From contig PAAG01000045.1 of NCBI GenBank assembly GCA_002698785.1, positions 62,001-126,000 of the forward strand: DNA of 64,000 nt, given 5' to 3'. The notes under the pieces were generated by a model. The model saw nothing but the letters and a program-made list of their open reading frames with translations. It was not told where the DNA came from and ran no database searches. Source of the stretch: Verrucomicrobiales bacterium (GTDB lineage Bacteria > Verrucomicrobiota > Verrucomicrobiia > Verrucomicrobiales > DEV007). The position numbers were made by a program, and so were the translations under genes. Below, piece by piece: positions 10,414 to 45,964 of the stretch (position 1 is its first letter; the number at the start of each line of letters is the position of its first letter).

Positions 10414-10428
10414 GGCCTTCGGGCTTAC
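10410..10428. terminator. UUCG-tetraloop hairpin between convergent genes
   Basis: GTAAGGCC - TTCG - GGCTTAC pairs with a single bulged G. It overlaps the stop codons of lysS (+) and pbpC (-) and is placed where a bidirectional terminator is expected; a T-tract is weak on both sides, so efficiency is uncertain. Confidence 0.55.
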
Positions 10429-12728
10429 AATGCCTCCACTCGAAACCGGCTTGCAACAGTGCGGCCGGATTTTCGATCGTGAGCTACGATCTCGTGTTCT
10501 CCCGGTTGTAGGACGACCCACATACGTTGGCCATCGGAGCGAACTTCAAGGCTGTCGCTTGCCCATTCAATTTCTTCCTGGCCAGAGCCGGCCACCTTTA
10601 AAGGAAACTGAGAGCCGTCGTTCGGGAGGTCGGGGTCAAGGTAGGCGACGGTGCCCTCCAATGGGCTCACGATGCGAAATTCAGGAGTGACCTCGAGCAC
10701 TTCTTCCAATGCTGCTTCCGTCTGTAGATCATTGGCTTCACTTCTCCACCAATTGGTATAGAGCAGGGACAGTTTTGTCTTTCCGTCTTCAGTGTAGTCG
10801 CGGTCCGTTGCTTCGAAGGGTACCGATCCATTCACGAACCATTCTTCGCGGACTCGGGACGAAGGAAGGTCGATAGTTTCAGCCAGTTTACCAGATAGAG
10901 TGTCCACTATTCTGCGCTCCGCATCGGCTGGTGTTTCATACCATCCCGAATCGCCACCTTCATTGAGACGTACCATCACTTGATGGAAAATCGGAGCCGC
11001 ACCCATTGAGCCTGAGATTTGATTCAGTGGGCGATTGCTGAAGCTACCTACCCAAACGCCGACCGTGAAATTCGGGGTAAATCCGATTGTCCAGTTGTCT
11101 CGAAAATCTGTTGAGGTGCCTGTTTTGCAAGCGGCCCGGAAAGGCAGATTCAAGGGAGAGTGAATCCCGAAAGCGGCAACTCGTGCGTCATTGTCAGAAA
11201 GGATGTCTGCCAGAACCCAGGCGCAATCCGCGTCGAATACCTCGACCGGTTCTGGAGTGGATTCATCCATCACGAAACGATACGGTAGATATTGGCCAAG
11301 TCGTGCAAGGCAGGCATAGGCGTTGGTGAGTTCAAGGAGGCGAACTTCAGCATTCCCCAGCGTGAGTCCCAGGCCGTATTCCACAGGATCGGATTTCAGT
11401 CCTGTGAGATGCAGGTCTTTCGTCAGGGTAGAATGGAGCACTTCCGGTCCGCCCAATTGATCGAGAAGTTTTACGGCAGGGACATTGAGCGAATTGGCCA
11501 ATGCGTGCCGGATCGAAACAGGGCCATTGAATCGGCGATCGAAATTCACCGGCTGATAAGCCCCGGTCGAGGTAATGTATTCAATCGGCGTGTCTGGCAA
11601 GACTGATGCCGCATTGTAGCCCCGCTCCAGCGCGACCAGATAGGTAAAAGGCTTTAACGTTGATCCAGCAGATCGCGGTCTCCATGCCCCGTTGATCTGT
11701 CCAGAACGTGAAGAGAAGAAGGAGCGGGAACCAGTCAGTGCGAGCACATCGCCGGTTTCATTGTCGATCACCACAACAGCGGATTGGAGGTCATTCGATT
11801 CGTTGGACTGATGAGTCAGTCTCGCCAATTCTGCAGATACGGTGCTTTCGACAAACCGTTGGAGATCCAGATCGAGAGTCGTCCGCAAAGTCCGGGACCC
11901 GGAAATGGCCTCTTTAATAGTATCCGGATTCTGTTCGCGAAGGAGTTCCGTGAAATGGGGAGCATGGAAGACCTGGGCCGGGCCGGGCAGGAGGTTAAGA
12001 GGTTCTGCCGCAGCGGTCGTGTATTCGGTTTCGTCGATGTAGCGCTCTTCTTTCATCCGCCCGAGAATCCACAATTGCCGTTTTCTTGCCGCGTCCGGAT
12101 TCTTCCATGGATTGAAATAGGAGGGCTTGTTAGGCAGTCCTGCGAGAAGAGCTGATTCTGCGATGGAGAGATCGGAAAGCGGTTTTCCAAAATATCCACG
12201 AGCAGCTGTTCTCGCCCCTGTGAACTGATTGCCGTAAGGAAGGTGATTGAAGTAGGCAGTGAGAATCGTCTCCTTATCGGCGAACATCTCCAGCTTTCGA
12301 GCCGTAAACGCTTCGATGAACTTGGTGCGGAAAACCCTCTTTCTTGGCGGGGAGTAAAGCTTTATCGTTTGCTGAGTCACTGTCGACGCGCCAGAGACAA
12401 AACGCTTCTTCACAGCCGCATCGCGAACGGCCCTTCCGATGCTCATGTAGTCGAGACCATTGTGGGAAAAGAAACGGCAGTCTTCCGCTGCGAGGGTGGC
12501 CTCGATCAAAGACTTCGGAAACTCGTCGTAGGTAGACGGCTCATCGGCCCTCAGGTCACCATCAAGTAATCTCCTGACCGGCTTTTCCTTTCTATCCAAA
12601 AACAGGAGACCTTGAGGCGGGCCAGCCAGGAGGTTCTCCGGAAGCGGAAAAAAGATCGGAACGATGTAAATCACAACGCCGTAAAGCAGCGCTGCGGCAA
12701 GGACACCGATTCCGATCTTCCGTTTCAT
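10425..12728 (-). CDS. pbpC: Penicillin-binding protein 1C
   Basis: 767 residues: one N-terminal transmembrane helix (~5-27), GT51 glycosyltransferase with AAEDCRFFSHNGLDYMS and GASTVTQQTIKL, a transpeptidase domain with GSTLKPF (Ser nucleophile present), SLNVPAVK and KTGTS, and a C-terminal ~90-residue beta domain typical of PBP1C (biPBP_C). It follows the alpha-2-macroglobulin gene by 27 bp, the same pairing as yfhM-pbpC in Escherichia coli; in that model the pair traps proteases and repairs the wall after envelope breach. The role here is inferred from that context. Confidence 0.95.
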   Translation of the reverse strand: MKRKIGIGVLAAALLYGVVIYIVPIFFPLPENLLAGPPQGLLFLDRKEKPVRRLLDGDLRADEPSTYDEFPKSLIEATLAAEDCRFFSHNGLDYMSIGRAVRDAAVKKRFVSGASTVTQQTIKLYSPPRKRVFRTKFIEAFTARKLEMFADKETILTAYFNHLPYGNQFTGARTAARGYFGKPLSDLSIAESALLAGLPNKPSYFNPWKNPDAARKRQLWILGRMKEERYIDETEYTTAAAEPLNLLPGPAQVFHAPHFTELLREQNPDTIKEAISGSRTLRTTLDLDLQRFVESTVSAELARLTHQSNESNDLQSAVVVIDNETGDVLALTGSRSFFSSRSGQINGAWRPRSAGSTLKPFTYLVALERGYNAASVLPDTPIEYITSTGAYQPVNFDRRFNGPVSIRHALANSLNVPAVKLLDQLGGPEVLHSTLTKDLHLTGLKSDPVEYGLGLTLGNAEVRLLELTNAYACLARLGQYLPYRFVMDESTPEPVEVFDADCAWVLADILSDNDARVAAFGIHSPLNLPFRAACKTGTSTDFRDNWTIGFTPNFTVGVWVGSFSNRPLNQISGSMGAAPIFHQVMVRLNEGGDSGWYETPADAERRIVDTLSGKLAETIDLPSSRVREEWFVNGSVPFEATDRDYTEDGKTKLSLLYTNWWRSEANDLQTEAALEEVLEVTPEFRIVSPLEGTVAYLDPDLPNDGSQFPLKVAGSGQEEIEWASDSLEVRSDGQRMWVVLQPGEHEIVAHDRKSGRTVASRFRVEAL

Positions 12729-12755
12729 CTCCGAACAAGATTACCTTTCTCTAGT

Positions 12756-15700
12756 TCAGCGCACAGCGACTTCGCCAGTATTGATCGTCTTGGCTTTTGC
12801 TTTGATTTGTTCCGTTCCGCTTAGGCCAAATCGTTGCGGTTCATACATCGCTTCGATCTTGGCTGGGGGAGCGGTGACGACTCCGGGTGCCACCACGCGA
12901 GCGAGGTACTGGAGGGTGTAGTCACCGGCGTTGAACACGCTGTCGGCAAAGAATACCACCCGGTCTTTTTGCATCTCAGTGTGATTGGCATACAGGCGGC
13001 GGATCTTCCGGTCGCGGTCGACTTTCTGCGTTGCCTGCGATTTGAACTTCGGGTTAACCGCTTCAAAAATGGCAGGCAGCGGATCGTCTATGGCGAGGTA
13101 GGATTCGCGTTGATTCGGGAGGTTTACATCAAGTGTAACGAGGATCAGGTCGCCGACCTCAAGGTTTTCCGCTTCAGTCAGGCTTCCATCCAGTTTCACT
13201 TTCTGGTAGTTCCGGTGAATCCCAAACCCATTGTTCTCGGGTTCAATGGGAATGAGTTCGGGGCGCGTCGCGATCTGCACGCTGGCATAGACCGGTGCGG
13301 AGTTTGCCGGATTGATTGAAAGTCCTCGGTCGGAAACATCGCCATCGAATGTGAAGGCGATCTGCTTACTTCCCGGTTCAGCGGCCAGGGAGACATTTTT
13401 TGATTCTTCGCCAAATGCCACCTCGATTTCATTTGCGGACATGCTCTTTGCCGTAGCTTCGCTGTAGGCAGAAAGCGCGATCAGCGGCCATGCATTCGAG
13501 TAGGTGCTTCCCCATCCGCGCTGCGGTTTGCGAAGTTTCATCAGGTCATTCACGAGGTCTTCGACACGGTTACTCTTCGGGTCATGTCTTACCTGAGCGA
13601 GCAATCGCGTGGCGGCAATGTAGGGAGTCTTATACCAGGAAACCTCGGCAACGGGGACTCGAGTGTCGGGAGACAGCAGCGTAGCAATTCGTTCGGGAAC
13701 ATCTGTTCCGCTCTCGATCATAGCGAGTGCCAGGAGCGAGCGGGCTTCCGAAGAAAGCTCGTTTCTCTTTGAGTAGAACAACTCGTGGTAGGACGTCTCA
13801 TTCACACCAGCGAGTGCCAGTGTGTAGGAAGCAAGGCAGCGCTGGGAGAGTTGGTAGGGTTCTTTCAGATCGCCTGACTCGCGCAGGTTTTTGGAAAGAT
13901 AGTTCCAGAGTGCCTGCGTTTGCTCTTCGGGAACTTCGATACCCTGCTTTTGAGCGTATGCAATGGCGACACCTCCGTAGGCGCTTCCCCAGAGAACGGA
14001 GTCATTCGAGCCCGGCCAGTAGCCGAGTCCGCCATCGCTGGTCTGCATTGAGAAGAGTCTTTCGATACCAGCCTTGATTGCTCGGTCGATCTCCGCAGGC
14101 TTCTTGTCCAGTTGCGGCATGACCTTCTGCAACTGCTGGGTGCTCAGCCAAGGGATCAGCGACGAAGTCGTCTGCTCAACACATCCGTAAGGATATTTGA
14201 GCAGGTAGTCGATCGCATCGGCAGCTTCGACAAGGCGGGAGTTGGAAAGAGTAACTTCCACATCACCGCGACCGTTCAAAAGGCGCGGTGCGACGGATCG
14301 GAGAGCGTTTTCCAAGTCCTGTTCGTCGCGAATCGCAAACGTGTGTGATTCGCGTAGCAGGGGCAAAGGATAACCCACTTGGATCGTCGATTCAGTGGCG
14401 TCGCGCAGACTCTCTTCTGTGATAGAGCGAACTTTCCAGTTCCACTTCGCTTCGCCAACTTCCACAAGTGCAGCCGGGAAAGAAATGGTCTCGGTCGCTC
14501 CCGGATTGAGGAACAATTTTGCAGTTCGGGTGCTGTTGTCGGCGGAAGAGGGGAGATTGGTTTTCAGCGTCTCACCGAGTTGATTAACAAAGGTAGCGTG
14601 ATCGTCGAGAGCGACCGTGATCTCAACTTCCTGCTGCTTTCCTGTGTTATTGTGAATGACGGCTGACAAGTCGATTTGGTCGGTCACGTTGGTGAAGCCG
14701 GGGAGTGCCGGTTCGATGATCAGTGGTTTGTTGATAACCAAGGGAGCTTCGGAGTGGCCAAAGCGATTGCCTTCCGCCACGACCGCCATTACGCGGAACT
14801 CAGTCAGGTTATCAGGAGCGGTGAAAGTGGTGCTGACCAAACCTGCCGCGTCGGTGATCAATGCGGGTTGCCAGAATGCGAGGGGCTTGAAATCTTTTCT
14901 CACTCGGTCTGGATCGAGGCCGTTGTTGGCGCCGCCACCGCCAATGACATATCCCTTATTCGCGAAGTCCTGCTCCTTTGGATTTTCAGGTAGGAGGGAC
15001 CGGAGGCTCTGTCCGGTGAAGACCGAAAGCGGGAAAATGTCGTGAAAGACATCGTGTGGATCAGGAGTCCTGTGTCCTGTCAGGCTGAGAACACCTTCGT
15101 CTACCGCAAAGAAAGTGACTTCGGCACCTTCGACGGGATTACCTTCGGCGTCGGTAATTGTCGTGGATAGAGTGACTTCTTCCCCAGGCTGATAATATTC
15201 GCGATTTCCGGTGTCGATCTTGGAAGAGAGGTGTGAGGCAGGATCATCAACTTCCAACTGGCAATACCCCATTCGATAATCTGCAGAGGTGTGAATGTGA
15301 GGGCTCTCATCAGAACCACGAACAATCAGGATGGACGCAAATAGATTCGGCGCGTCGCCTTCTTTGATCGGCACTTCGAGGACTGTCTCATACTGATCGA
15401 TCATGATGGACTCTGCGGAGCGGACACCACCGCGTTCGGTTGTCAGTAAGGCATGACCAAACACAGGGGAACGAACGAGGATTTTAGCCGTGTCGCCGAC
15501 ATTGTAAGTCGTCTTGTCCGGTGTCATATCGATGCGGATGACATCGTACCAGGACCAGGAAGGTTCCTCCGCACCGATTACAGTGAATTTGCACTTGGTA
15601 ATGACAGGGCGTTCTTCGGCATCGCGAGCTGTGATCGTGATTTCGTAATCGCCCGCGTCGGCAAACTTGATGTCGTAAGGCATTGCTTTCGTCAATCCTG

Positions 15701-18167
15701 TCTCTGGATCGATAGCTGTCTTAAGAGCAAAGGTTTCTTCGGAAACCATTTCGAGGCGCTTCTCGTTCCGGTGAGTCATTCTTCCGTTGGCGCCCCTGAC
15801 TTTTACTGTGTTCCAGATCGCCTTCTCGACGAGCACTGTTGTGGATACCTCATTGGTGTAGGCATCTCCTTCTGTAGACACTGCTGCTACAGAAAAAGTA
15901 GCCGTGTCTCCTGCTCGATGGACGCCTTCGGGTAGGCGCATGCCAAGGTAGAAGTCGGAGCTATGCACCGTGAAACGAGTCGAGTTCGAAATCGTCTGCT
16001 GGTTTGCATCGGTGACCTGTGCCGTGACGGAAACGCTTCGAGGCCCCGGATGGGCATCCTGTTCTGGTAACTCAAAGGAAATGGTCGCTTCACCCTTCGA
16101 TGTCAAAGTTCCCTTTCCGTCGGTGCTGAACGAGTCGAAATCGACAATGCGATCGCCAAACTCGAATTCATCGAAACCTCTCGGGCGAGGATACTGATTG
16201 TTGGCGTAGGCATTCCAAGTCAGCTCCGCCTTGGAAAGAGATTTGCCCATGTAGTAATTCGCGCTAACAGGAATCTCCAATTTGTCGGTCAGGGTGTAGG
16301 AGTCTTTCGAATCCAGGTTCACTTCGAAGGTATTGACGCGGTATTCCTCTACCTGAAAGGAGTGATGGGCGATCAAACGCCAATCTGGATGTTCGTCTTC
16401 ACCGAGTTCCTTGGGATTAAAGTCGAGCTCAATAGAATGCCAGCCGAGTCCTGCTGCCGGGAGTTTGAAGGAATCGTCGAAACTACCGTTCTCTCCGAGT
16501 TGAACATCCTTCTCAACAATCTTGCGATGGCGGGCATCGTAGACGCGGAGAGTCGCTGCACCAGATCCTGGGCCGAGGAGTTTGTCGGCATCGATGAATC
16601 GAGAAATGGCCTTCAACTTTACCTCTTCGCCGGGCTTATAAACGTTCCTATCGACAAAGAGGAGTGTGCGGCGTTCTCCATCGATCAGGTCGTCCCAGCG
16701 TTGCTGAACGTTAAAGTTCCAGAGGCCTACTGTCTCAAGATCTTCAAAGAACTGGATGACGTGGCGATCTTCGCCCAACTGAGAGTCCAGGTATAGCTTG
16801 CCCTCTTTTTCTTTGTAGGCGCTGGCTTCAAGGTTCCCGATACCATTTTCACCAGTTGTCGTTTCGGCGAGAAGCTTCGCATTTTCATCTACGATCCGGA
16901 TCTTCATTCCGGGCAGTGGGTTTCCGGATTGAAGGGAAAAGCCGTAGAGAACAGTTCCTTCATCGGACTGTTTCCAGGCTAGTCCAATATCCGTAAGCTG
17001 AATCAAAGACTGTGCTCCTACCGAGAGTTGTTCGCGAGTGGCGGAGCGTCCTTCGGAGCACAGATAAAAGGCACCGGTCTTCTCTTCACCGGCGAGTTCG
17101 TTCCAATCAAGAGTTACAGTTTCTGTCGTGTCGACTTTCGCTGTTGGATCCTGGAAGGAATCGTAAATCGTTTCTCCAGGTACGGTGGCAAAAGGAACCG
17201 TCTGCTTCTCTCCCCAGCCCTCGTATTTCTCGTCGTACTCCCGCATTGCGAGGATGAGGTTGTCGCCGGAGAGGGATTTTACACGAGTGCGGAGGCCTGT
17301 GAGGTTTCCCGTTTTTACATCGAAATGTCGGTGACCGCTTGCGTTCTGTGTTGTCGAGAATGCGGGATAAGTAATGAATCCCTCATTGGGGACAAACGTT
17401 GTCGTTTCTGAAAAGACCTGCTCCAGTTGGGTCGTGTCGTTGGCGATCAGTCCGCTCTTCACAGTCACCGAATATTCTTCCCCGTATTCAAAGTCACCAT
17501 CCAGCATGATCTGGTAACTTCCCGGATCGATGGAGAAATTGTCCGGCTCTGGGCTGATCGTGATGTATTCGGCGAGTGCCTTCGCGTCGAATTTTTCCTG
17601 GAGGCTGCTCTTGTTGTGAGAGATGCGAATGCGCATCGGCGAATTGTATTCGTTCGAACTGATCAGTTTGCTGATCGTGAAAGCCGCGAGATTCCCGACA
17701 TACTGAAGGCGGCTCTCGATGATTTCGTTGGTTCCGTTACTGCTGTTCAGCCCGGCTCGCGCGTTCAGATACCAGGTGCCGTTCAGAGGAAGGGGAGAGG
17801 AGGGGCGAATGAGAACGAAATTCTCCTCTGGGATTCCGGTAGGGTCGGATTTTCTGAGTTCCTTGATCTCGTCAGTAGTCGGGCGGGATGCCTTGATCGG
17901 AGCAAATCGGTCATTCGGTTTGTCATAGAGAATGAGGCTCTTTTCGGCAGCAGACGGTTCGACCGGTGCATTGAACTGCAGAAGAATTTCAGATTCCGGA
18001 GTGAGCGGGTTCCGTGAATTGAACTGATATGGGTAGAGCTGAAAGGTGAGACTTTGCTTACCCGTGCCTTCGGTGGACTGCGAAAATGCTGAGTTTGGAA
18101 TGAGACCAGCGAGGGCGATGAACAGGACGGATAGGACCAACGACGGGATTGATTTCGGTTTCATCAT
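12756..18167 (-). CDS. Bacterial alpha-2-macroglobulin (thioester protease trap)
   Basis: 1803 residues from the ATG at 18167 (a second ATG follows directly); the 37 residues available further upstream carry no signal. The start is followed by a classical signal peptide ending NSAFSQ without a lipobox cysteine. A long series of macroglobulin-like beta domains is followed by a thioester domain with YGCVEQ (Cys ~1329), embedded in an alpha-alpha toroid, and a C-terminal receptor-like domain. Proteases that cut the bait region should be covalently trapped in the periplasm. Escherichia coli YfhM is a lipoprotein, so the missing lipobox suggests a soluble periplasmic form. Operon with pbpC (27 bp downstream). 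Confidence 0.95.
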   Translation of the reverse strand: MMKPKSIPSLVLSVLFIALAGLIPNSAFSQSTEGTGKQSLTFQLYPYQFNSRNPLTPESEILLQFNAPVEPSAAEKSLILYDKPNDRFAPIKASRPTTDEIKELRKSDPTGIPEENFVLIRPSSPLPLNGTWYLNARAGLNSSNGTNEIIESRLQYVGNLAAFTISKLISSNEYNSPMRIRISHNKSSLQEKFDAKALAEYITISPEPDNFSIDPGSYQIMLDGDFEYGEEYSVTVKSGLIANDTTQLEQVFSETTTFVPNEGFITYPAFSTTQNASGHRHFDVKTGNLTGLRTRVKSLSGDNLILAMREYDEKYEGWGEKQTVPFATVPGETIYDSFQDPTAKVDTTETVTLDWNELAGEEKTGAFYLCSEGRSATREQLSVGAQSLIQLTDIGLAWKQSDEGTVLYGFSLQSGNPLPGMKIRIVDENAKLLAETTTGENGIGNLEASAYKEKEGKLYLDSQLGEDRHVIQFFEDLETVGLWNFNVQQRWDDLIDGERRTLLFVDRNVYKPGEEVKLKAISRFIDADKLLGPGSGAATLRVYDARHRKIVEKDVQLGENGSFDDSFKLPAAGLGWHSIELDFNPKELGEDEHPDWRLIAHHSFQVEEYRVNTFEVNLDSKDSYTLTDKLEIPVSANYYMGKSLSKAELTWNAYANNQYPRPRGFDEFEFGDRIVDFDSFSTDGKGTLTSKGEATISFELPEQDAHPGPRSVSVTAQVTDANQQTISNSTRFTVHSSDFYLGMRLPEGVHRAGDTATFSVAAVSTEGDAYTNEVSTTVLVEKAIWNTVKVRGANGRMTHRNEKRLEMVSEETFALKTAIDPETGLTKAMPYDIKFADAGDYEITITARDAEERPVITKCKFTVIGAEEPSWSWYDVIRIDMTPDKTTYNVGDTAKILVRSPVFGHALLTTERGGVRSAESIMIDQYETVLEVPIKEGDAPNLFASILIVRGSDESPHIHTSADYRMGYCQLEVDDPASHLSSKIDTGNREYYQPGEEVTLSTTITDAEGNPVEGAEVTFFAVDEGVLSLTGHRTPDPHDVFHDIFPLSVFTGQSLRSLLPENPKEQDFANKGYVIGGGGANNGLDPDRVRKDFKPLAFWQPALITDAAGLVSTTFTAPDNLTEFRVMAVVAEGNRFGHSEAPLVINKPLIIEPALPGFTNVTDQIDLSAVIHNNTGKQQEVEITVALDDHATFVNQLGETLKTNLPSSADNSTRTAKLFLNPGATETISFPAALVEVGEAKWNWKVRSITEESLRDATESTIQVGYPLPLLRESHTFAIRDEQDLENALRSVAPRLLNGRGDVEVTLSNSRLVEAADAIDYLLKYPYGCVEQTTSSLIPWLSTQQLQKVMPQLDKKPAEIDRAIKAGIERLFSMQTSDGGLGYWPGSNDSVLWGSAYGGVAIAYAQKQGIEVPEEQTQALWNYLSKNLRESGDLKEPYQLSQRCLASYTLALAGVNETSYHELFYSKRNELSSEARSLLALAMIESGTDVPERIATLLSPDTRVPVAEVSWYKTPYIAATRLLAQVRHDPKSNRVEDLVNDLMKLRKPQRGWGSTYSNAWPLIALSAYSEATAKSMSANEIEVAFGEESKNVSLAAEPGSKQIAFTFDGDVSDRGLSINPANSAPVYASVQIATRPELIPIEPENNGFGIHRNYQKVKLDGSLTEAENLEVGDLILVTLDVNLPNQRESYLAIDDPLPAIFEAVNPKFKSQATQKVDRDRKIRRLYANHTEMQKDRVVFFADSVFNAGDYTLQYLARVVAPGVVTAPPAKIEAMYEPQRFGLSGTEQIKAKAKTINTGEVAVR

Positions 18168-18334
18168 GATGGGACGCTTTTGGCGCGAGCCAGAATCCGG
18201 CTCACGCTTAGACGGACAATACGGCAGGTTTAGGTGCACTCTTTCCATATAGAGGAAAATAAGTGCCTCTTTTTCCACTACGACTCGTCACCGGATCTAC
18301 TTAGGGCGCAAACACGAATCGAGAAACGGTCTTG

Positions 18335-38936: not shown

Positions 38937-39212
38937 TCAGGCTGCGCTATCCACGTACTTTTCCCGGCAGTGGACGATGGCATCCAGCATTTGCTCTGCT
39001 TCCTCCCTGAGCTCGGGATTTAAACTTCCCGCCGCCTGATTGTGACGTTTGTAGAGAGAGGCCAGTTTCTGCCGAATCTCTTCCTGACTCATTTTTTGAG
39101 GGTCGATTTCGCAGAGAGCTTCCGGGGTCATTTTTCCGAAAATGCCACCGACTCGAAGGTCCTGTTCTTGCTCTGGGCGCCCACTGAAGAAGTTGATGAG
39201 TTTCTTGAACAT
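38937..39212 (-). CDS. Small helical protein of the FHA/Hsp70 module (degenerate J-domain-like?)
   Basis: 91 residues beginning MFKKLINFFSGRPEQEQ, with three predicted helices. The segment SQEEIRQKLASLYKRHNQAAG and the following helix NPELREEAEQMLDAIVHCRE have the spacing of J-domain helices II and III, with HNQ where a J-domain carries HPD. That loss would normally abolish Hsp70 ATPase stimulation. The resemblance is weak and the call is context-driven: the gene lies 21 bp after the Hsp70 gene and is its last operon partner. It could equally be an unrelated small helical protein. Confidence 0.6.
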   Translation of the reverse strand: MFKKLINFFSGRPEQEQDLRVGGIFGKMTPEALCEIDPQKMSQEEIRQKLASLYKRHNQAAGSLNPELREEAEQMLDAIVHCREKYVDSAA

Positions 39213-39233
39213 GATGTGATGCAGGTGTTTTTG

Positions 39234-40733
39234 TTAGGCGATTTTTACTTTTTTCAGGTAGGCCGATTTCCTTTCAATTTCTTCGTCAGGCAAAACTCCG
39301 TCTCCTTTGTATTCGATAGAAATATCTTTTCTCAGTCCCGATTCTTCGTCGTAGACTTGTGCCCTCACTCGTTGGTTCTCGTCATAACTGTAGGTGACCG
39401 TAACCTGACAGCCGGCAGGACGTCCGGGCGGTACGCGAAGACTGATCTTCCCTATAATATCCACATAGCGGGGATCAAGATCCTCTCCCTGGGTAATTTC
39501 GACTTCGATGAGCTCCTCATTGTCTTCCGACGTCATGTATGTCTGAGACATCGAACAGGGGATAGGGGTGTTTTTCGGAATCACGATCGAATTCTGAACA
39601 CTTGCTTCACGAGTGACTGCGTCTTCAATGAGAGCCAGTGTCCCATAGCTGTGGTTGCACACTTCTGACACTCGGCGAGCACGCTGCGCAAACAACGCGG
39701 CCCCCAGCGCTACACATTCATCCACATTGCCGCACGAAATAGGCGGGCGACCGAATTGATTCGTCAGCAACTCCTGAACTTTAGGGATTCGTGTGCTGCC
39801 GCCTACGAGAACGACGTGATCAATTTCATTCGGCTGGAGCCCGAGGTTGTCGAGAGCCTGCTCGACAAGCATCACTGTCCGAGTCAGCAACCTGCGAATG
39901 GCTTCTTCAAAGGAATCACGAGAAAGTTCCACTTCCGCCAGGCCAAAATCTTCGCTTCCAATCTTCTCAGAGACCACGTTGAGTTTCGACAATCGCTTTT
40001 TAGTATCCTCCGCAGCGGCGAGGAGCCTGCGACGTTGGTGTTCGTCAAGGATCAGGTCCTTTCCGTTCTGTTCACGAAATTTTTCCCCAATCAGGTCGAT
40101 CAGAATTTCATCAAAGTCAGATCCACCGAGATGCCGAGCGCCTTCGCTCAAAAGGATATCAACATTGTCGCGGTCGATGTCCAGAATGGTGATGTCCAGG
40201 GTTCCTCCACCGAGATCGTAGACCAGCACCCTTCCCTGAACGGATTGGGTGTGCGCATAGTAGAGAGCGGCGGCAGTTGGCTCGTTGACGATCCTCTTTA
40301 CACTCAGGCCCGCCAGACGCCCGGCTGTGACGGTTGCCTTCCTCGCCAGTTCGTTAAAATTAGCGGGGACCGTAATGACAACGTCATCGATCTGTCCGAT
40401 TAGCTTCGAGCAATCTTTTCGGAGCTTGGCGAGAATGAGTGCTGAAATTTCGGTCGGGGTCCACTTTTCTCCGTCAATTTCGACAAAGAAAGCGGGGTCA
40501 TCCATCTTCTTCTTAATGTGGCGAACAGTCCGATCCGGATCGCCACCATCCTTGGCAGCGGACCCGACTAACTTGATTCCTTCATAGCGATCGAAAAAAA
40601 CGACCGACGGTGTTAGCCGCTCCCCGTCGGAATTAGGGACGATCTCAGGATTTCCGTCGGAGCGAACGTGGGCCAGCGATGATGTGCTGGTCCCAAGATC
40701 GATACCGACATGCAAAGCGGTTCTGTCTGCCAT
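39234..40733 (-). CDS. Short Hsp70-family chaperone (DnaK/HscC-like, no C-terminal lid)
   Basis: 499 residues against ~640 for DnaK. The nucleotide-binding domain is complete: GIDLGTSTSSLAHV, VNEPTAAALYYA, VYDLGGGTLDITI and HVVLVGGSTRIPKV. A beta substrate-binding domain follows (~375-490), but the alpha-helical lid and the EEVD-like tail are absent, so substrate release should be fast. It is the middle gene of a reverse-strand trio: a giant FHA/coiled-coil protein whose C-terminus looks like GrpE lies 134 bp upstream, and the small 91-residue protein 21 bp downstream. Instead of a Shine-Dalgarno, the region before the ATG carries CTCCTCCTT. Confidence 0.93.
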   Translation of the reverse strand: MADRTALHVGIDLGTSTSSLAHVRSDGNPEIVPNSDGERLTPSVVFFDRYEGIKLVGSAAKDGGDPDRTVRHIKKKMDDPAFFVEIDGEKWTPTEISALILAKLRKDCSKLIGQIDDVVITVPANFNELARKATVTAGRLAGLSVKRIVNEPTAAALYYAHTQSVQGRVLVYDLGGGTLDITILDIDRDNVDILLSEGARHLGGSDFDEILIDLIGEKFREQNGKDLILDEHQRRRLLAAAEDTKKRLSKLNVVSEKIGSEDFGLAEVELSRDSFEEAIRRLLTRTVMLVEQALDNLGLQPNEIDHVVLVGGSTRIPKVQELLTNQFGRPPISCGNVDECVALGAALFAQRARRVSEVCNHSYGTLALIEDAVTREASVQNSIVIPKNTPIPCSMSQTYMTSEDNEELIEVEITQGEDLDPRYVDIIGKISLRVPPGRPAGCQVTVTYSYDENQRVRAQVYDEESGLRKDISIEYKGDGVLPDEEIERKSAYLKKVKIA

Positions 40734-40753
40734 GTTTTTAAGGAGGAGAAAAA

Positions 40754-40776
40754 TCGTTATTGTGTCTCGATAACGA
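40754..40776 (-). terminator. Hairpin with T-tract between the FHA/coiled-coil and Hsp70 genes
   Basis: TCGTTAT and ATAACGA form a 7-bp stem with a 9-nt loop; in reverse-strand direction TTTTT follows. It looks like a weak attenuator that could lower Hsp70 expression relative to the upstream gene; alternatively an operator palindrome. Confidence 0.45.
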
Positions 40777-40867
40777 TAAATTTACTATGTTTGAAACGAA
40801 AAATCCAGATTTTTCATAAGTTCTAGGCCGATTTTTTTCCCTTTGGCCTATGTCTGCCCAGTCTGGC

Positions 40868-43800
40868 CTACGCTACAACCACTTCTGCTTTCCGAATAAT
40901 CACATTCTTGTTCCCGTTCTGATAGAGGTAGCCAGGACGTACAGTCTCAATGACTCGTGAATCATGGCCATTTGTGCCATTCACCACAGGCTTTCTAGCT
41001 CCTGTGTCTGGCTGTGGAACGAGTTTGATTCGTTTTCTTTCTTCAATAGAAAGAACAGTCCCCGGTTCGAGATCGAATTGGAGAACGGAGTGATCCCTGA
41101 GCAGTTCGAGGAAGCTTCTCTTGAGTATGACGAGTTGGTCTGAGACTTTCGGGTATCGCCACTTATTCTCGTATCTCTTCGCCAGGTCATCTATCAAATC
41201 GATCTTTGCGATCAGTTTGCGATAGAAGTCCTCTTGCGGGAATTCGCCCGTGTTTCGAGCGACGTAGTCTGCCGTCGTTTCGCTGAATACATCGCTTCGA
41301 CTCAGGACATTCTGCTGACGACGCCTTTCTACTGCCTGCTCCATCTCCGACTCAAGTTTCTTGAGTGACTGGATTCGACGCTCCGCGGCATGGATTGTCT
41401 CTGAAAGCTTTTCTCCTTGGTCGCGTGAATCTGTAGTCCGGCGTTGTACTGACTCCAGGTCTTTTCTGGCTTGGTTCAACGTCGCTTTCAGTTCCTCGCG
41501 CTCGCCAAGCAACTGATCCCGTTGTTCCTTGATCTGGGCTTCTTTCTGTTGGAATTCGTGAAGGCTTCGACTGAGTTTTTCCAACTCCTCCTCCGTCGAT
41601 TTTCTCTGGCTCGTAGCCTCTCCAATTTGTTCTCTGATTCGCTGCAGGTTGGCATCTTCGCTCGCAAGAGTGAGCTTTTCCTCTCTCAACTCGTTGTAAC
41701 GGTTTTCCCAGTCCTGAATCTCCTGCCGCCTTTTGGTCTCGGTTTCTTCGAGCTTTTCGGACAGGTTTGCTGTTTCCGATTGTAATTTGGCCACAGTCCT
41801 CTCCGACTGCTCCCTGGCGGCGAGTTCCGTCGCATGTAATCGTCGCGCTTTCTCCAGGTGAATCCAGTTGGATTGGAGCGCTTGGGAAAACCCTCCTCTG
41901 GTCTGGTCCAACTCAGTAATGACAAACTCGCGAGCTTCCTGTTCGTCGCGAATTTTTGCCTCCAGATCCTCGATGGTTTCGGACAACCGTTCGATGCGCT
42001 CTTCGCGGTCGTTCAATTCGTCTTCCAGACTGTTCCTGGCAGCTTCCATTTCCTCCCTCGATCGAATCACCTGGGTGAGTTCGTCTTCCATTCCGGAGAG
42101 CTTTGCGTTACCTTCCGCGATGAGTTCGGCCTGTGCCTTGCGGCTCTCTTCCCAAGCATTGCGTAATGCTTCAGACAAACCATTCCGTGTGTCTTCCAGG
42201 TCTTTCTGAAGCTTTTCTTTTCGATTGGTCTCAAGTCGCAATTCCTCAAGGAGGGAGTCGATCTCACCTCGATGTTTTTCGAGCAACCCTCTCTCCGACT
42301 CGGTGTAACGAGAGATCGTTGCATCCAACTCCTGTTTCAGGGAGGAAGCCATCTTTTCGTGGCTCGCTGCCAGAGCTGTCTTGTCGGCCAGTTTCGAGGA
42401 GAGATCTGCCCTTTGCATTTCATTTTCGCGCAACAGCTCCCTCATCGAAGAAGTCTCCGCCTCAACTTCAATGATCCGGTTTTTTAGGGCAAGTACTTCA
42501 TCCTGGGCTGTTTTTCGATCCTCCTTAACAGAGCTGAGCATTTCTCCGAGGCCTAGAAGCCTTTCTTCGCTATCCTGTGCGGAACGGCGCCACTGCGAGA
42601 GGTCCGTTTCAATCTCTCGAATTCGTTCCTGTTCCCGCCGGACTGCCTCTGATTCGTTCTCTCGAATCTGGCTCTCCAGCTTCTCAATCAGTTGCTTACC
42701 TGCAAGAGAAGCACTTACCTCTTCCTTGATTCTCGCGGCGAGTTCACTGTTGCTGGACTCCGCTTTCTCCAGCCTGCGGGCGAGCAGACCCTTTTCGTGA
42801 AGAATATTTTCTTCGCGTTCGGCAGCGCTCTTGAGCGAGGTCTCCGAAGAGTCCAACTGGGCTTTGAGCCGCTCAAACGATCCGCTGAGCGATTGCTTCT
42901 CTCGCTCAATTTCCGCTCGTTTCGTTTCAGCGTTTTCACGTGCGGAAACTGCGTTGCTGAGCTCCCGCTTCAGGGACTGCACCAGATCGCTCTCGTTGCG
43001 CGCGTGTTCCGAATCCTTCTCGACGAGTTCGCGTGTCTTCGCCGTGAGCGACTGCTGTAAGCCTTCCACTTCCGCGAGCAACTCCTTAGAGCGCACTCGC
43101 GAATGCTCAAGCTCGCGGGAGAGTTCATCCTTCTCGGCAGAGTAGCGATTGAGTTCTGCCTGCAGCCTTCCGTTGTTACGCGAAGCGTCTTCGTTACTCC
43201 GTCTCAGGCTTTCGAGTTCCTGCTCAGTCGTGTTAAGGTTGGAGCGGAAAGAAAAAACTTCTCCTGAGAGCAACTCGTTCTTCTTCTGGCCATCGAGCGC
43301 CCGGACTTTTTCGGAAGCAAGAGCCGTCTCCAACTCCGCAATGCGGGACTTCAGAGTGCGCTCGGATTCCTGGAAATCTCTGTCAGAAGACTCTCGTGTC
43401 TTCTGCAGGTCGATGCGCAGTTGGTTGGCTTCTGCCTTTGCGCTTTGAACCGATCCCCGTTCCTGTCTGAGTTGGTCAGTGGTGGAGCTTAGCTCGGATT
43501 CGAGCATCTCGACCTTTTCCCTCAGAGACGTCAGCTCTGAACCGGTGTCCGTTCCGGACTTTCGTGCGTCCGCCAGATCCGCGAGAAGTCTCTCTTTCTC
43601 CGAGGTGAGCTCATCGAGAGACTGCTTCGAAGACAGAAGACTCTCATCTGCCTGCTTTTTATGGGTCTCGGCTTCTTCCTTGAGAGACTCAATTTCCTGC
43701 TTCAGCACAGGTATTGCTTCGGCAGCTTCCTTTGCCGTCTCCAGGTCATTCGCTAACGCATCCCGATTCTCTTCCAGGGTTCGGACTTTGTCCTGAAGCA

Positions 43801-45964
43801 AAGTAACTTCCTGGGAGGATTCGTCTTTTGTGGTTTTGGCAGTCTCCAGTTCGGAGGCGAGAAGTGCTTTCTCTGCACTGAGCTCCTCCAGCGATTTCTG
43901 GGCCGTTTCGAAGCGATTTGAAAGATCTTTTGATTCCTTGCGGGCGCTCTCCAACAACTGCTCGAGTTCGGAAACTTTCGAACTCGATTCCTTGGATACG
44001 GCATCTTTGGACGCTTCCAACGTCGCGATCAGCGCGAGCGACTCAGCAACTTTCGATTCCAGACGAACCCGATCATTTTCGAATTCAGCGGCACGATCCG
44101 ATATTTCGGACTCCTTGGACTGCAAATGGGAATGTAAATTTTCCTTCTCTGACAGCGCTGTTTCGAGCGAGGTTCGAGTGGATCGTTCTTTCTCGTCGAG
44201 TTCGCGTATAGTTATGTCGGAATCTTTCAATTGCCCTCTGAGCGTGTCGATTTCCGACGTGAGAGTAAGAACTTTCGCCGCCTCGCCTTTGGCTTCTTCT
44301 GCGTCGGCAGTGGTATCGCTGAGCTGAGTTTCCAGCTTTTCAATTGCAGCCTGGCGTTCGTCGAGTTGTTTCGTCAGGGCCTCGATCTCCGAAGAAAGGG
44401 TAACCACCTTCGCTGCTTCGCCCTTGGCTTCTTCGACGCTTGCAGTGGTTTCGCTGAGCTGGCTCTTCAGGTCTTCGATTGTCGTCTGGCTCTCGTCCAG
44501 TTTTCCAGTGAGAGATTGAACCTCCTCGGAGAGAGTGATCACTTTGGCCGCTTCGGCCTCTGCTGCCTCGGCGTTCGCTGTTGTGTTGGTGAGGTCGTCT
44601 TCGAGCGAACTAAGTGACTTTTTCAGCTCATCAAGTTGCTGGGAGAGTTCTTCGTTTTCCTTAAGGGCGCCGCTCAGTTTCTCCTCTAGCTCGTTAGCCG
44701 AGGCGGAAGCGTTATCTTGCAGGCCCTTAATTTCGCTCTCAAGAGACAGTCGAGCAGCTTTCTCCTCTTCCAACTGTTCTTGCAGGGTGCTGGCCTGTGA
44801 TCGAGCTTCCTCGATTGCTGCTTTGGACTGGTCCGCTTCTTCAGTAGAGTTTGTTCTCAGCGTAGCAAGCTCTTCCTCCTTGAGGGAAAGTTGTTCCTGT
44901 AAGGTTTTCTCACGCGAACTCACTTCGTCAAAGTCGCTGGTCAGCTTGGCGATTGAAGCAGAAATGGCTGCCGCCTTGACGGCTTCCGAGGACTTAGCCT
45001 CCAGTTCCGTTTTCAGTTCAGACAGCTCAGCCTGCAATTGTGAGATGGTGGACTCACTCGCGGAGCTTTCTTCCTGACGTAGCTGTTCCTCTTCCGAAAC
45101 TTTTTGCTCAAAGGCAGCCAGTTTTGTTTTGGATTCATCGAAATCAGCTTTCAGTTTATCGATCTCTTCCTGAGCATTCTTCAGAGACTCGGCCTCTACT
45201 GCCTTTGATTGTTTGGTTTCTTCCAACTCGGAGGTCAGGCGATTCTCTTTGGCTTTTGATTGCTCGATTTCGTGCTCCAGCGCCTGAATCTGGTCTTCCA
45301 ACTCACTTTTCGCTTTCTCAGTCTCCGCGCTGGCAGTTTTGGAAAGCTCCTGTATCTCACCTTCTTTGGCATCGAGGGAACTGCGCAATTTGCTCGCCTC
45401 TTCTTCTGTCTTAGTTAGTGCCGCTTTCGTCTCCTTGAGTTCTTTCTCCAGAGACTCGAGTTTCTTTTTACTCCCGTCGTCCTCTCTCTTTGGAGGGTCT
45501 GCCTCTGTCGGGATGTTAGGAGAAAGCGTTCCCGGTGTGGAAATGCTTTTCAGAGAGTCGACGCTACCGGTCTTTTTCTCTACGCCGATTGATGATGTCT
45601 CATCCTTCGCTTTTCCAGCAAAGGCAGGGCGATCCTTTAGTGAAACGATAGTGGGTCCGTCGGATCCTACTTCAGCGACGGCCACTTTGAGGATGCCAAA
45701 TTTGATATAGTCGCCCGCACTGATGACCTCAGGCTTTTCGACACGCTTTCCATTCAAGAACGTTCCGTTCGATGAGCCGAGGTCGACTAACTCATAATCT
45801 CCGTCAGAATTCCTGACAATTTCAGAATGGTAACCGGAAATGTACGTTTCTTTGATTCGGAGTTCGTTGTCGTGCCGACGACCGATCCGATATTTCTTAT
45901 TTTCGAGAATGAGTTCGAAAACGTCACCTTGGACGTTAGTCGTCACCACGAGCTTCAGAGTCAT
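40868..45964 (-). CDS. Giant FHA-domain coiled-coil protein with C-terminal GrpE-like domain
   Basis: 1698 residues. An FHA domain fills residues ~1-95: YRIGRRHDNELRI, then SGYHSEI and DLGSSNGTFLNG, the phosphothreonine-binding set. Residues ~155-1560 are almost continuous heptad coiled coil rich in Glu, Lys, Leu and Ser, including two tandem 45-residue repeats. The last ~119 residues (1580-1698) change character and resemble the GrpE beta domain: LKRSFLELLRDHSVLQFD, then VIETVRPGYLYQNG and IIRKAEVVVA, matching GrpE's FLDVLRKYGV..., GYxLNGR and IRxAxVxVA. An Hsp70 gene follows directly, so this may be its nucleotide-exchange partner tethered to a long spacer and a phosphopeptide reader. No signal peptide or membrane helix. 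Confidence 0.9.
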   Translation of the reverse strand: MTLKLVVTTNVQGDVFELILENKKYRIGRRHDNELRIKETYISGYHSEIVRNSDGDYELVDLGSSNGTFLNGKRVEKPEVISAGDYIKFGILKVAVAEVGSDGPTIVSLKDRPAFAGKAKDETSSIGVEKKTGSVDSLKSISTPGTLSPNIPTEADPPKREDDGSKKKLESLEKELKETKAALTKTEEEASKLRSSLDAKEGEIQELSKTASAETEKAKSELEDQIQALEHEIEQSKAKENRLTSELEETKQSKAVEAESLKNAQEEIDKLKADFDESKTKLAAFEQKVSEEEQLRQEESSASESTISQLQAELSELKTELEAKSSEAVKAAAISASIAKLTSDFDEVSSREKTLQEQLSLKEEELATLRTNSTEEADQSKAAIEEARSQASTLQEQLEEEKAARLSLESEIKGLQDNASASANELEEKLSGALKENEELSQQLDELKKSLSSLEDDLTNTTANAEAAEAEAAKVITLSEEVQSLTGKLDESQTTIEDLKSQLSETTASVEEAKGEAAKVVTLSSEIEALTKQLDERQAAIEKLETQLSDTTADAEEAKGEAAKVLTLTSEIDTLRGQLKDSDITIRELDEKERSTRTSLETALSEKENLHSHLQSKESEISDRAAEFENDRVRLESKVAESLALIATLEASKDAVSKESSSKVSELEQLLESARKESKDLSNRFETAQKSLEELSAEKALLASELETAKTTKDESSQEVTLLQDKVRTLEENRDALANDLETAKEAAEAIPVLKQEIESLKEEAETHKKQADESLLSSKQSLDELTSEKERLLADLADARKSGTDTGSELTSLREKVEMLESELSSTTDQLRQERGSVQSAKAEANQLRIDLQKTRESSDRDFQESERTLKSRIAELETALASEKVRALDGQKKNELLSGEVFSFRSNLNTTEQELESLRRSNEDASRNNGRLQAELNRYSAEKDELSRELEHSRVRSKELLAEVEGLQQSLTAKTRELVEKDSEHARNESDLVQSLKRELSNAVSARENAETKRAEIEREKQSLSGSFERLKAQLDSSETSLKSAAEREENILHEKGLLARRLEKAESSNSELAARIKEEVSASLAGKQLIEKLESQIRENESEAVRREQERIREIETDLSQWRRSAQDSEERLLGLGEMLSSVKEDRKTAQDEVLALKNRIIEVEAETSSMRELLRENEMQRADLSSKLADKTALAASHEKMASSLKQELDATISRYTESERGLLEKHRGEIDSLLEELRLETNRKEKLQKDLEDTRNGLSEALRNAWEESRKAQAELIAEGNAKLSGMEDELTQVIRSREEMEAARNSLEDELNDREERIERLSETIEDLEAKIRDEQEAREFVITELDQTRGGFSQALQSNWIHLEKARRLHATELAAREQSERTVAKLQSETANLSEKLEETETKRRQEIQDWENRYNELREEKLTLASEDANLQRIREQIGEATSQRKSTEEELEKLSRSLHEFQQKEAQIKEQRDQLLGEREELKATLNQARKDLESVQRRTTDSRDQGEKLSETIHAAERRIQSLKKLESEMEQAVERRRQQNVLSRSDVFSETTADYVARNTGEFPQEDFYRKLIAKIDLIDDLAKRYENKWRYPKVSDQLVILKRSFLELLRDHSVLQFDLEPGTVLSIEERKRIKLVPQPDTGARKPVVNGTNGHDSRVIETVRPGYLYQNGNKNVIIRKAEVVVA
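44267..44536 (-). repeat. Two tandem 135-bp repeats inside the coiled coil
   Basis: Two copies of a 45-codon unit (44402-44536 and 44267-44401), each starting with Thr-Leu-Ser and ending AKGEAAKV plus one residue; a partial third copy starts at 44266 and a remnant precedes the first. The copies differ at many third positions, so the duplication is not recent. Confidence 0.75.

Follow-up and report, generated by a model that had tools for sequence, protein, structure and literature searches.

A 64,000-nucleotide stretch of contig PAAG01000045.1 from a Verrucomicrobiales bacterium (assembly GCA_002698785.1, positions 62,001 to 126,000; the window) carries a conserved operon of three reverse-strand genes. 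Gene 1 (40868..45964), assigned from its open reading frame (ORF), Pfam matches and conserved order, encodes a 1,698-residue protein, here called the giant, with an FHA domain, a coiled coil and a GrpE-like end. Gene 2 (39234..40733) encodes a 499-residue Hsp70 that lacks the lid, and gene 3 (38937..39212) a 91-residue protein with a predicted basic amphipathic N-terminal helix and a putative J-like helical hairpin devoid of the HPD motif. The three ORFs lie exactly where a first-pass annotation, made from the sequence alone, had placed them. The explanation we favour, giving it about an even chance, is that the trio forms a private, orthogonal Hsp70 machine addressed through phosphorylation, in a cell whose genome also encodes GrpE, DnaJ and full-length Hsp70s.

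The trio is a conserved operon in Verrucomicrobiales

Homologous loci were collected with one peptide pattern of the small protein in a scan of named genomes. This yielded 56 loci with the taxon labels Verrucomicrobiales, Verrucomicrobiaceae, Akkermansiaceae, Prosthecobacter, Verrucomicrobium, Brevifollis and the like; because the pattern picked the loci, the gene-order counts are conditioned on the small gene. The Hsp70 gene lay directly upstream of the small gene at 55 of the 56 loci. Where more than 1 kb was available upstream of the Hsp70 gene (49 loci), a GrpE-like ORF directly preceded it at 44, and an FHA match was found in the same or the directly adjacent ORF at 36; most of the others have ORFs that are broken or truncated at contig starts. 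The five loci without a GrpE-like ORF upstream of the Hsp70 were L103, L106, L115, L120 and L135. At L115 FHA, a portion of the GrpE-like end and the tail of the Hsp70 are read as one ORF, which may reflect an assembly fault.

Among the 74 genomes of the window's GTDB family, 52 had a match to the GrpE-like end and 34 a lidless Hsp70 at E<=1e-100. Of the 27 with a GrpE-like match above 61 bits, 26 also had the Hsp70, the exception being G010. The co-conservation of giant and Hsp70, which the first-pass annotation had proposed as a check, was therefore found at 44/49 loci and in 26/27 genomes but is not strict, since G010 and nine loci of three genera (below) depart from it. Across the order, the small protein was detected in 104 of 386 sampled genomes, representing 27 of 50 genera. 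No neighbour family outside the trio recurred at two or more loci both in the window's family (f1) and in Verrucomicrobiaceae; eight components span the two groups, the largest with 4+1 and 1+5 loci. With gene order conserved and no neighbour family widely shared between the two groups, the trio stays together while its surroundings change.

A lidless Hsp70 with intact ATPase residues and a rewritten linker

The product of gene 2 is an Hsp70 (PF00012, E=5.2e-104) composed of a nucleotide-binding domain (NBD), a rewritten interdomain linker, the beta-sandwich of the substrate-binding domain (SBD-beta) and a short tail. It scored below the curated DnaK cut-offs (PRK00290, 360 of 648 bits; TIGR02350, 348 of 823 bits). 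The chain stops right after SBD-beta, at about DnaK position 515, and so has no alpha-helical lid, as the first-pass annotation had noted; aligned homologues have lengths of up to 499 residues. Across the window's family the Hsp70s are 64-87% identical.

Functional positions were tabulated for 52 sequences, that of the window plus one from each of 51 loci passing E<1e-200. Among the ATPase residues, E171, D194 and T199 were present in 52/52, and D8 and K70 in all 50 sequences reaching those positions. The peptide-groove positions of SBD-beta were also kept, as Y for F426 and I for V436 in 52/52. The linker is altered, reading VCNHSYG in the window protein (residues 358-364; 39642..39662) in place of the VLLLD linker of DnaK, and its VCNxxYG pattern is common to two genomes of another class, G610 and G776. 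Position 390 was C in 51/52, position 391 was N in 52/52, and position 393 was S in 48 and G in 4.

In its account of J-domain binding, a review by Mayer (2021, PMC8215388) names R167, Q378, L391, P419 and D477 as the DnaK sites met by the J domain. In the table, R167 and P419 were kept, Q378 was replaced by F in 51/52, L391 by N in 52/52 and D477 by S in 51/52; three of four HPD-docking positions are changed, in addition to the interdomain linker. The GrpE-signature loop, which that review places at residues 290-295 and gives as deleted in HscA (PMC8215388), is shorter here: 52/52 sequences have gaps at positions 287 and 290. The window genome's own DnaK has the loop. Of the two cleft salt bridges, one (K55-E267) is retained as K/R-E and the other (R56-E264) is missing.

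The window genome encodes another Hsp70, of 561 residues, on contig 22 (L076:3860-7390). Its neighbour encodes a protein of 609 residues whose weak J domain has HRPD as its motif.

A GrpE fold at the end of the giant

PF01025, the GrpE family, was absent from the Pfam scan of the whole 1,698-residue giant. When the GrpE-like end (residues 1576-1698; 40871..41239), consisting of a helical part and a beta domain, was scanned alone, PF01025 matched with E=0.0024 and 18 bits, below the curated score of 25.8. A profile built from 34 sequences, namely the window and 33 of 46 available homologue rows (L093 was left out for its broken giant frame), matched GrpE 4ani nearly end to end with E=4.8e-4. 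The AlphaFold2 model of the last 175 residues reached a predicted local distance difference test score (pLDDT) of 84.9 and a predicted template modelling score (pTM) of 0.62. Searching with this model, Foldseek returned GrpE in all of the top ten rows, the best with E=2.8e-4, probability 1.00 and a template modelling (TM) score of 0.44; three rows had E<=0.001, and TM-scores were modest at <=0.52 on either side. Against human GrpEL1 (9bls) the model gave Z 11.3 over 103 residues at 3.4 Å, with unrelated rows starting at Z 7.0. The structure prediction called for in the first-pass annotation bears out its GrpE-like C-terminus, and by these models the end of the giant has a GrpE fold.

Among the residues that contact DnaK, an R186-like arginine is kept and the FDPNVH motif is replaced. 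A hydrophobic residue, set in a longer hairpin, stands at the place of R183, which we take to have a role in DnaK contact. Judging from the alignments, a normal nucleotide exchange factor (NEF) role is doubtful, because the GrpE-signature loop of the Hsp70 is shortened, one cleft salt bridge is lost and genus g7 lacks the end.

A probable phosphothreonine reader on a tether of free length

The FHA domain, likewise anticipated by the first-pass annotation, was recovered at residues 25-90 of the giant (45695..45892; PF00498, E=4.4e-18) and in the alignment. Forty sequences (the window and 39 loci with a long enough ORF) were compared at its pocket. R29, S43, H46 and N71 were identical in 40/40 and N66 in 39/40; R29, S43, H46 and N66 presumably act in the phosphothreonine pocket. 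The intact pocket residues, in a genome with 36 matches to the kinase family PF00069 (some of which come from the same frame), suggest docking at a phosphorylated site.

The coiled coil spans about residues 163-1550 (41315..45478), in agreement with the roughly 1,400 residues first estimated. Residues 201-1500 contain a single proline, and the heptad (3.5-residue) power over residues 166-1545 was 0.929, compared with 0.166 +/- 0.028 in 200 shuffles. The 44 stop-to-stop lengths of giant ORFs ranged from 183 to 2396 codons, some cut by contig ends. In genus g6 (L108 and L119) the whole FHA-GrpE-like protein measures 286 and 294 residues stop to stop, the coil being nearly absent and replaced by a proline-rich linker. 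The coil is therefore a tether whose length is free to vary. It is not universal, nor is the GrpE-like end, which is missing at L103 and L106. The wide length range and the near-absence in genus g6 rule out a ruler of fixed length, and the giant coil is not central to the design. SMC, Rad50, JetC and other coil matches were rejected as relatives of the giant because they cover the coil only and score far below whatever curated cut-offs are available.

Proteins that fuse FHA, coil and GrpE-like end occur more widely than the trio. Nine loci in genera g2, g5 and g11 (L060-L065, L086-L088) carry divergent genes of this kind, or pieces of them, with no lidless Hsp70 nearby. The window genome itself has a further FHA-coil protein with a GrpE-like end, of 631 residues, on contig 12 (L069:4003-6725) beside dnaG; a 276-residue gene adjoins it, no Hsp70 lies alongside, and L073 has a similar arrangement.

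Two variants of the gene layout were seen. In genus g7 (L103, L106, L148 and L149) an FHA-coil protein without the GrpE-like end adjoins an intact Hsp70 and the small gene. In Verrucomicrobiaceae loci L125-L130, L134, L136-L139 and L145 the giant gene is preceded by a short, stand-alone FHA ORF of 216-303 codons, counted from stop to stop.

A small protein without HPD

The start of the 91-residue protein (residues 1-10, MFKKLINFFS; 39183..39212) is predicted to form a basic amphipathic helix. This start pattern was found at 47/56 loci. The hydrophobic moment of the first 11 residues in the window protein was matched by 4% of shuffles, and among 20 hand-chosen N-termini 14 lay above 95% of their own shuffles. 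The amphipathic start suggests a membrane location.

The putative J-like domain occupies residues 30-88 (38949..39125). Its hairpin is conserved and contains [KR]R[HYF]N, which in the window protein reads KRHN, close to where HPD would stand in a J domain. The HPD motif itself was present at 0/56 loci, and we accordingly rejected a normal J cofactor. In a profile search with 36 members (the window and 35 of the 56 loci), DnaJ was not among the families listed (25 of 27). The model of the small protein (pLDDT 77) makes a J-like fold suggestive. This reading gains support from the sister modules described below, in which the same domain follows a TerB domain (L146, 23.2 bits; L186, 33.2 bits), a position that we take to correspond to that of the J domain in DjlA. 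The weak J-domain resemblance first noted thus survives as a suggestive fold only, with HPD missing and the J profile unmatched. Similarly, the first-pass proposal of a module of NEF, Hsp70 and J cofactor stands insofar as the genes lie together and the GrpE fold is predicted, but it does not extend to a normal J cofactor, and the normal NEF role is in doubt.

Sister modules in another class

In a phylum-wide sample searched with the window Hsp70, 8/387 genomes had a match at E<=1e-85, one of which (G610) lies outside the order. A sample of the class of G610 gave 2/288 genomes with such an Hsp70. In these two, G610 (L146:2843-9176) and G776 (L186:6244-11111), lidless Hsp70s with the VCNxxYG linker are part of four-gene modules in the order GrpE-like gene, Hsp70, TerB plus J-like protein and M48 peptidase. 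Between the two loci the peptidases, both with HExxH, are 56% identical, the TerB proteins 42% and the GrpE-like proteins 47%. The GrpE-like label rests in G610 on a PF01025 match below cut-off (E=5.5e-4); the G776 protein matched neither Pfam GrpE at E<=0.01 nor the homologue profile. G610 has two tandem Hsp70s, the second of which (L146:5188-6783) carries D8 to Q and K70 to R exchanges and is possibly an inactive partner. L146 adjoins hsdR. L186, whose TerB protein had no match in plasmids, lies next to AbiEi/AbiEii and a phage-type integrase. Both modules are a candidate conflict system.

In a tree of 27 sequences the Hsp70s with the VCNxxYG linker were monophyletic with bootstrap 100, those of G610 and G776 grouping with the window's family (bootstrap 100). 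Next to join, again with bootstrap 100, was a lidless Hsp70 from a Rhodococcus pseudokoreensis plasmid. It is encoded with TPR, GrpE and FtsK/SpoIIIE genes (L180:7589-13977) near Tni transposition and recombinase genes. Plasmid and phage searches with the window Hsp70 gave identities of at most 39.6% and 38.5% among the matches listed, and a scan of viral contigs found no relative.

A proposed mechanism and its alternatives

On the evidence of the alignments, two interfaces appear to be changed on both sides, namely HPD with its dock and the GrpE-like end with the signature loop. Together with intact catalysis, this fits a departure of the Hsp70 from the DnaK network in company with its partners. 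We propose that the Hsp70 is a live ATPase that would grip clients by the unlidded beta-sandwich and exchange them fast because SBD-beta has no lid. The three proteins would bind one another: the GrpE-like end would dock on or gate the NBD, and the HPD-less J-like protein would dock at the rewritten linker, its basic amphipathic helix bringing the Hsp70 to the membrane. The FHA head would bind a partner that one of the many Hanks-type kinases of the cell has phosphorylated on threonine. As this head shares a chain with the GrpE-like end, the Hsp70 cycle would be run at that place, under kinase control and presumably on a local client, with the coil serving as a tether of adjustable length. Both partners, encoded with the Hsp70, would have changed in step with it, which may insulate the trio from DnaK, DnaJ and GrpE.

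A number of results weigh against this explanation. The J-like fold of the small protein is not significant: Foldseek gave a best E of 0.90, though 6 of the top 10 rows were J domains; in the VIA fold search the top four rows were J domains at Z 5.3-5.7, tied with unrelated folds; and hhalign to J domains gave a probability of 5% over 27 columns. For six of the 20 chosen N-termini the hydrophobic moment does not exceed that of shuffles at the 5% level. L103 and L106 of genus g7 have FHA and coil but lack the GrpE-like end, and genomes G053-G055 gave no match to it. Nor are giant and Hsp70 inseparable, as L120 and L135 have the Hsp70 and small gene with no giant upstream, G010 has a close giant (L044) and no lidless Hsp70 at E<=1e-100, and at that threshold no lidless Hsp70 was found in any genome of g2, g5 and g11, the genera of the nine divergent-giant loci. 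Finally, the housekeeping neighbourhood of the trio points to no target.

One alternative is that the Hsp70 acts as an actin-fold ATP switch that assembles or disassembles a coiled-coil scaffold, the GrpE-like end and the J-like protein being mere docks. The very long coils among the 44 giant ORFs would suit such a role, and the loss of HPD and of the linker makes classical client cycling doubtful. Against it stands the near-absence of the coil in L108 and L119, and the peptide-groove positions kept in all 52 sequences would be superfluous for a pure switch. We regard this alternative as unlikely.

We also consider it improbable that the trio is a conflict or defence module, its Hsp70 set detecting or inactivating an invader in the manner suggested for conflict systems bearing Hsp70 and GrpE. 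The locations of the two sister modules, beside hsdR or beside an integrase and AbiEi/AbiEii, and their terminal M48 peptidase with HExxH speak for it, as does the Rhodococcus plasmid, on which the lidless Hsp70 and its TPR and GrpE genes neighbour Tni and recombinase genes; Kaur et al. (2020, PMC7159879) moreover describe HSP70 and GrpE themes among the GAP1-N2 conflict systems. The sister loci number only two, however, and the Verrucomicrobiales trio has no peptidase or TerB gene and sits among housekeeping genes. Its Hsp70 is well conserved within the family, and PADLOC returned no convincing match, with E=0.0013 to one candidate model for the Hsp70, none for the small protein and only coil-type matches for the giant.

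A specialised but classical DnaK-like chaperone tethered by FHA, its NEF and J partner both normal, would account for the GrpE fold, SBD-beta, the ATPase residues and the K/R55-E267 pair, but is very unlikely given the missing HPD, the changed HPD-docking site, linker and GrpE-signature loop, and Hsp70 scores well short of both DnaK cut-offs.

Returning to the orthogonal Hsp70 machine, a broader version, which we hold somewhat more tentatively, is that the trio belongs to an undescribed family of self-contained Hsp70 machines, orthogonal to DnaK/DnaJ/GrpE in the same cell, with one form in Verrucomicrobiales and one in the other class. The hallmark of this family would be a lidless Hsp70 with the VCNxxYG linker and its own GrpE-like and HPD-less J-like partners. 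In Verrucomicrobiales the GrpE-like partner would have gained an FHA head and coil, leading to kinase-controlled, localised Hsp70 action. In the other class the J-like partner would have been joined to TerB and an M48 peptidase added, in islands of mobile or defence-like appearance.

If correct, this would represent a natural Hsp70 cycle running without HPD and without the classical linker, its partners having changed in step, and could reveal which features are indispensable to Hsp70 allostery. A chaperone would also be linked to Ser/Thr kinase signalling through a phosphothreonine reader on a chain with the fold of an exchange factor. In the sister modules, chaperone and metalloprotease may act together.

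Relation to known systems

Like DnaK-DnaJ-GrpE, the trio combines an Hsp70 NBD and SBD-beta, a GrpE fold and possibly a J-like fold, here in one operon. In contrast to that system it has no lid and no HPD, its linker is rewritten and its GrpE-signature loop shortened, and its GrpE-like chain carries an FHA head and coil. Ssz1, a non-canonical Hsp70 of the ribosome-associated complex, resembles the trio in lacking a full lid, and Tim16/Pam16 in having an HPD-less J-like domain that binds rather than stimulates; unlike the trio, both are eukaryotic and have no FHA and no GrpE-like fusion. We found no sequence relation of Ssz1 or Tim16/Pam16 to the trio, and the Tim16 chain 2guz_B gave Z 4.3 against the small-protein model.

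Dedicated Hsp70 sets are already known, both as HscA/HscB and HscC/DjlC and as Hsp70 with GrpE in GAP1-N2 systems. As outlined by Mayer (2021, PMC8215388), HscA/HscB and HscC/DjlC are likewise Hsp70s outside the DnaK network with a deleted GrpE signature and their own J protein. In that outline, however, they keep the lid, have no NEF and use HPD J domains, whereas the trio has a GrpE-like partner and no HPD. The GAP1-N2 themes share with the trio a dedicated Hsp70 with its own GrpE and, sometimes, a DnaJ-fused partner, following the description by Kaur et al. (2020, PMC7159879). The FHA-coil-GrpE fusion and the HPD-less partner were not found in that description. A Pfam scan of ten neighbours at the window locus gave no GAP1-N2 or GTPase match, and the window neighbours scanned included no vWA gene. 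The first-pass annotation knew of no described system of this design, and in the literature searched, preprints not covered, we found no description of the FHA-coil-GrpE-like fusion, the VCNxxYG linker or the HPD-less partner.

Surroundings of the trio in the window

The neighbours of the trio in the window are housekeeping genes such as cysS, hemB, metH and ACP phosphodiesterase, and a mobile-element origin of the locus was rejected because of them. A promoter scan found none at the locus, and terminator-like sites were fewer than in shuffles. Elsewhere in the window (10425-18278) a bacterial alpha-2-macroglobulin gene adjoins the gene for a PBP1C-type penicillin-binding protein, an arrangement known from other bacteria.

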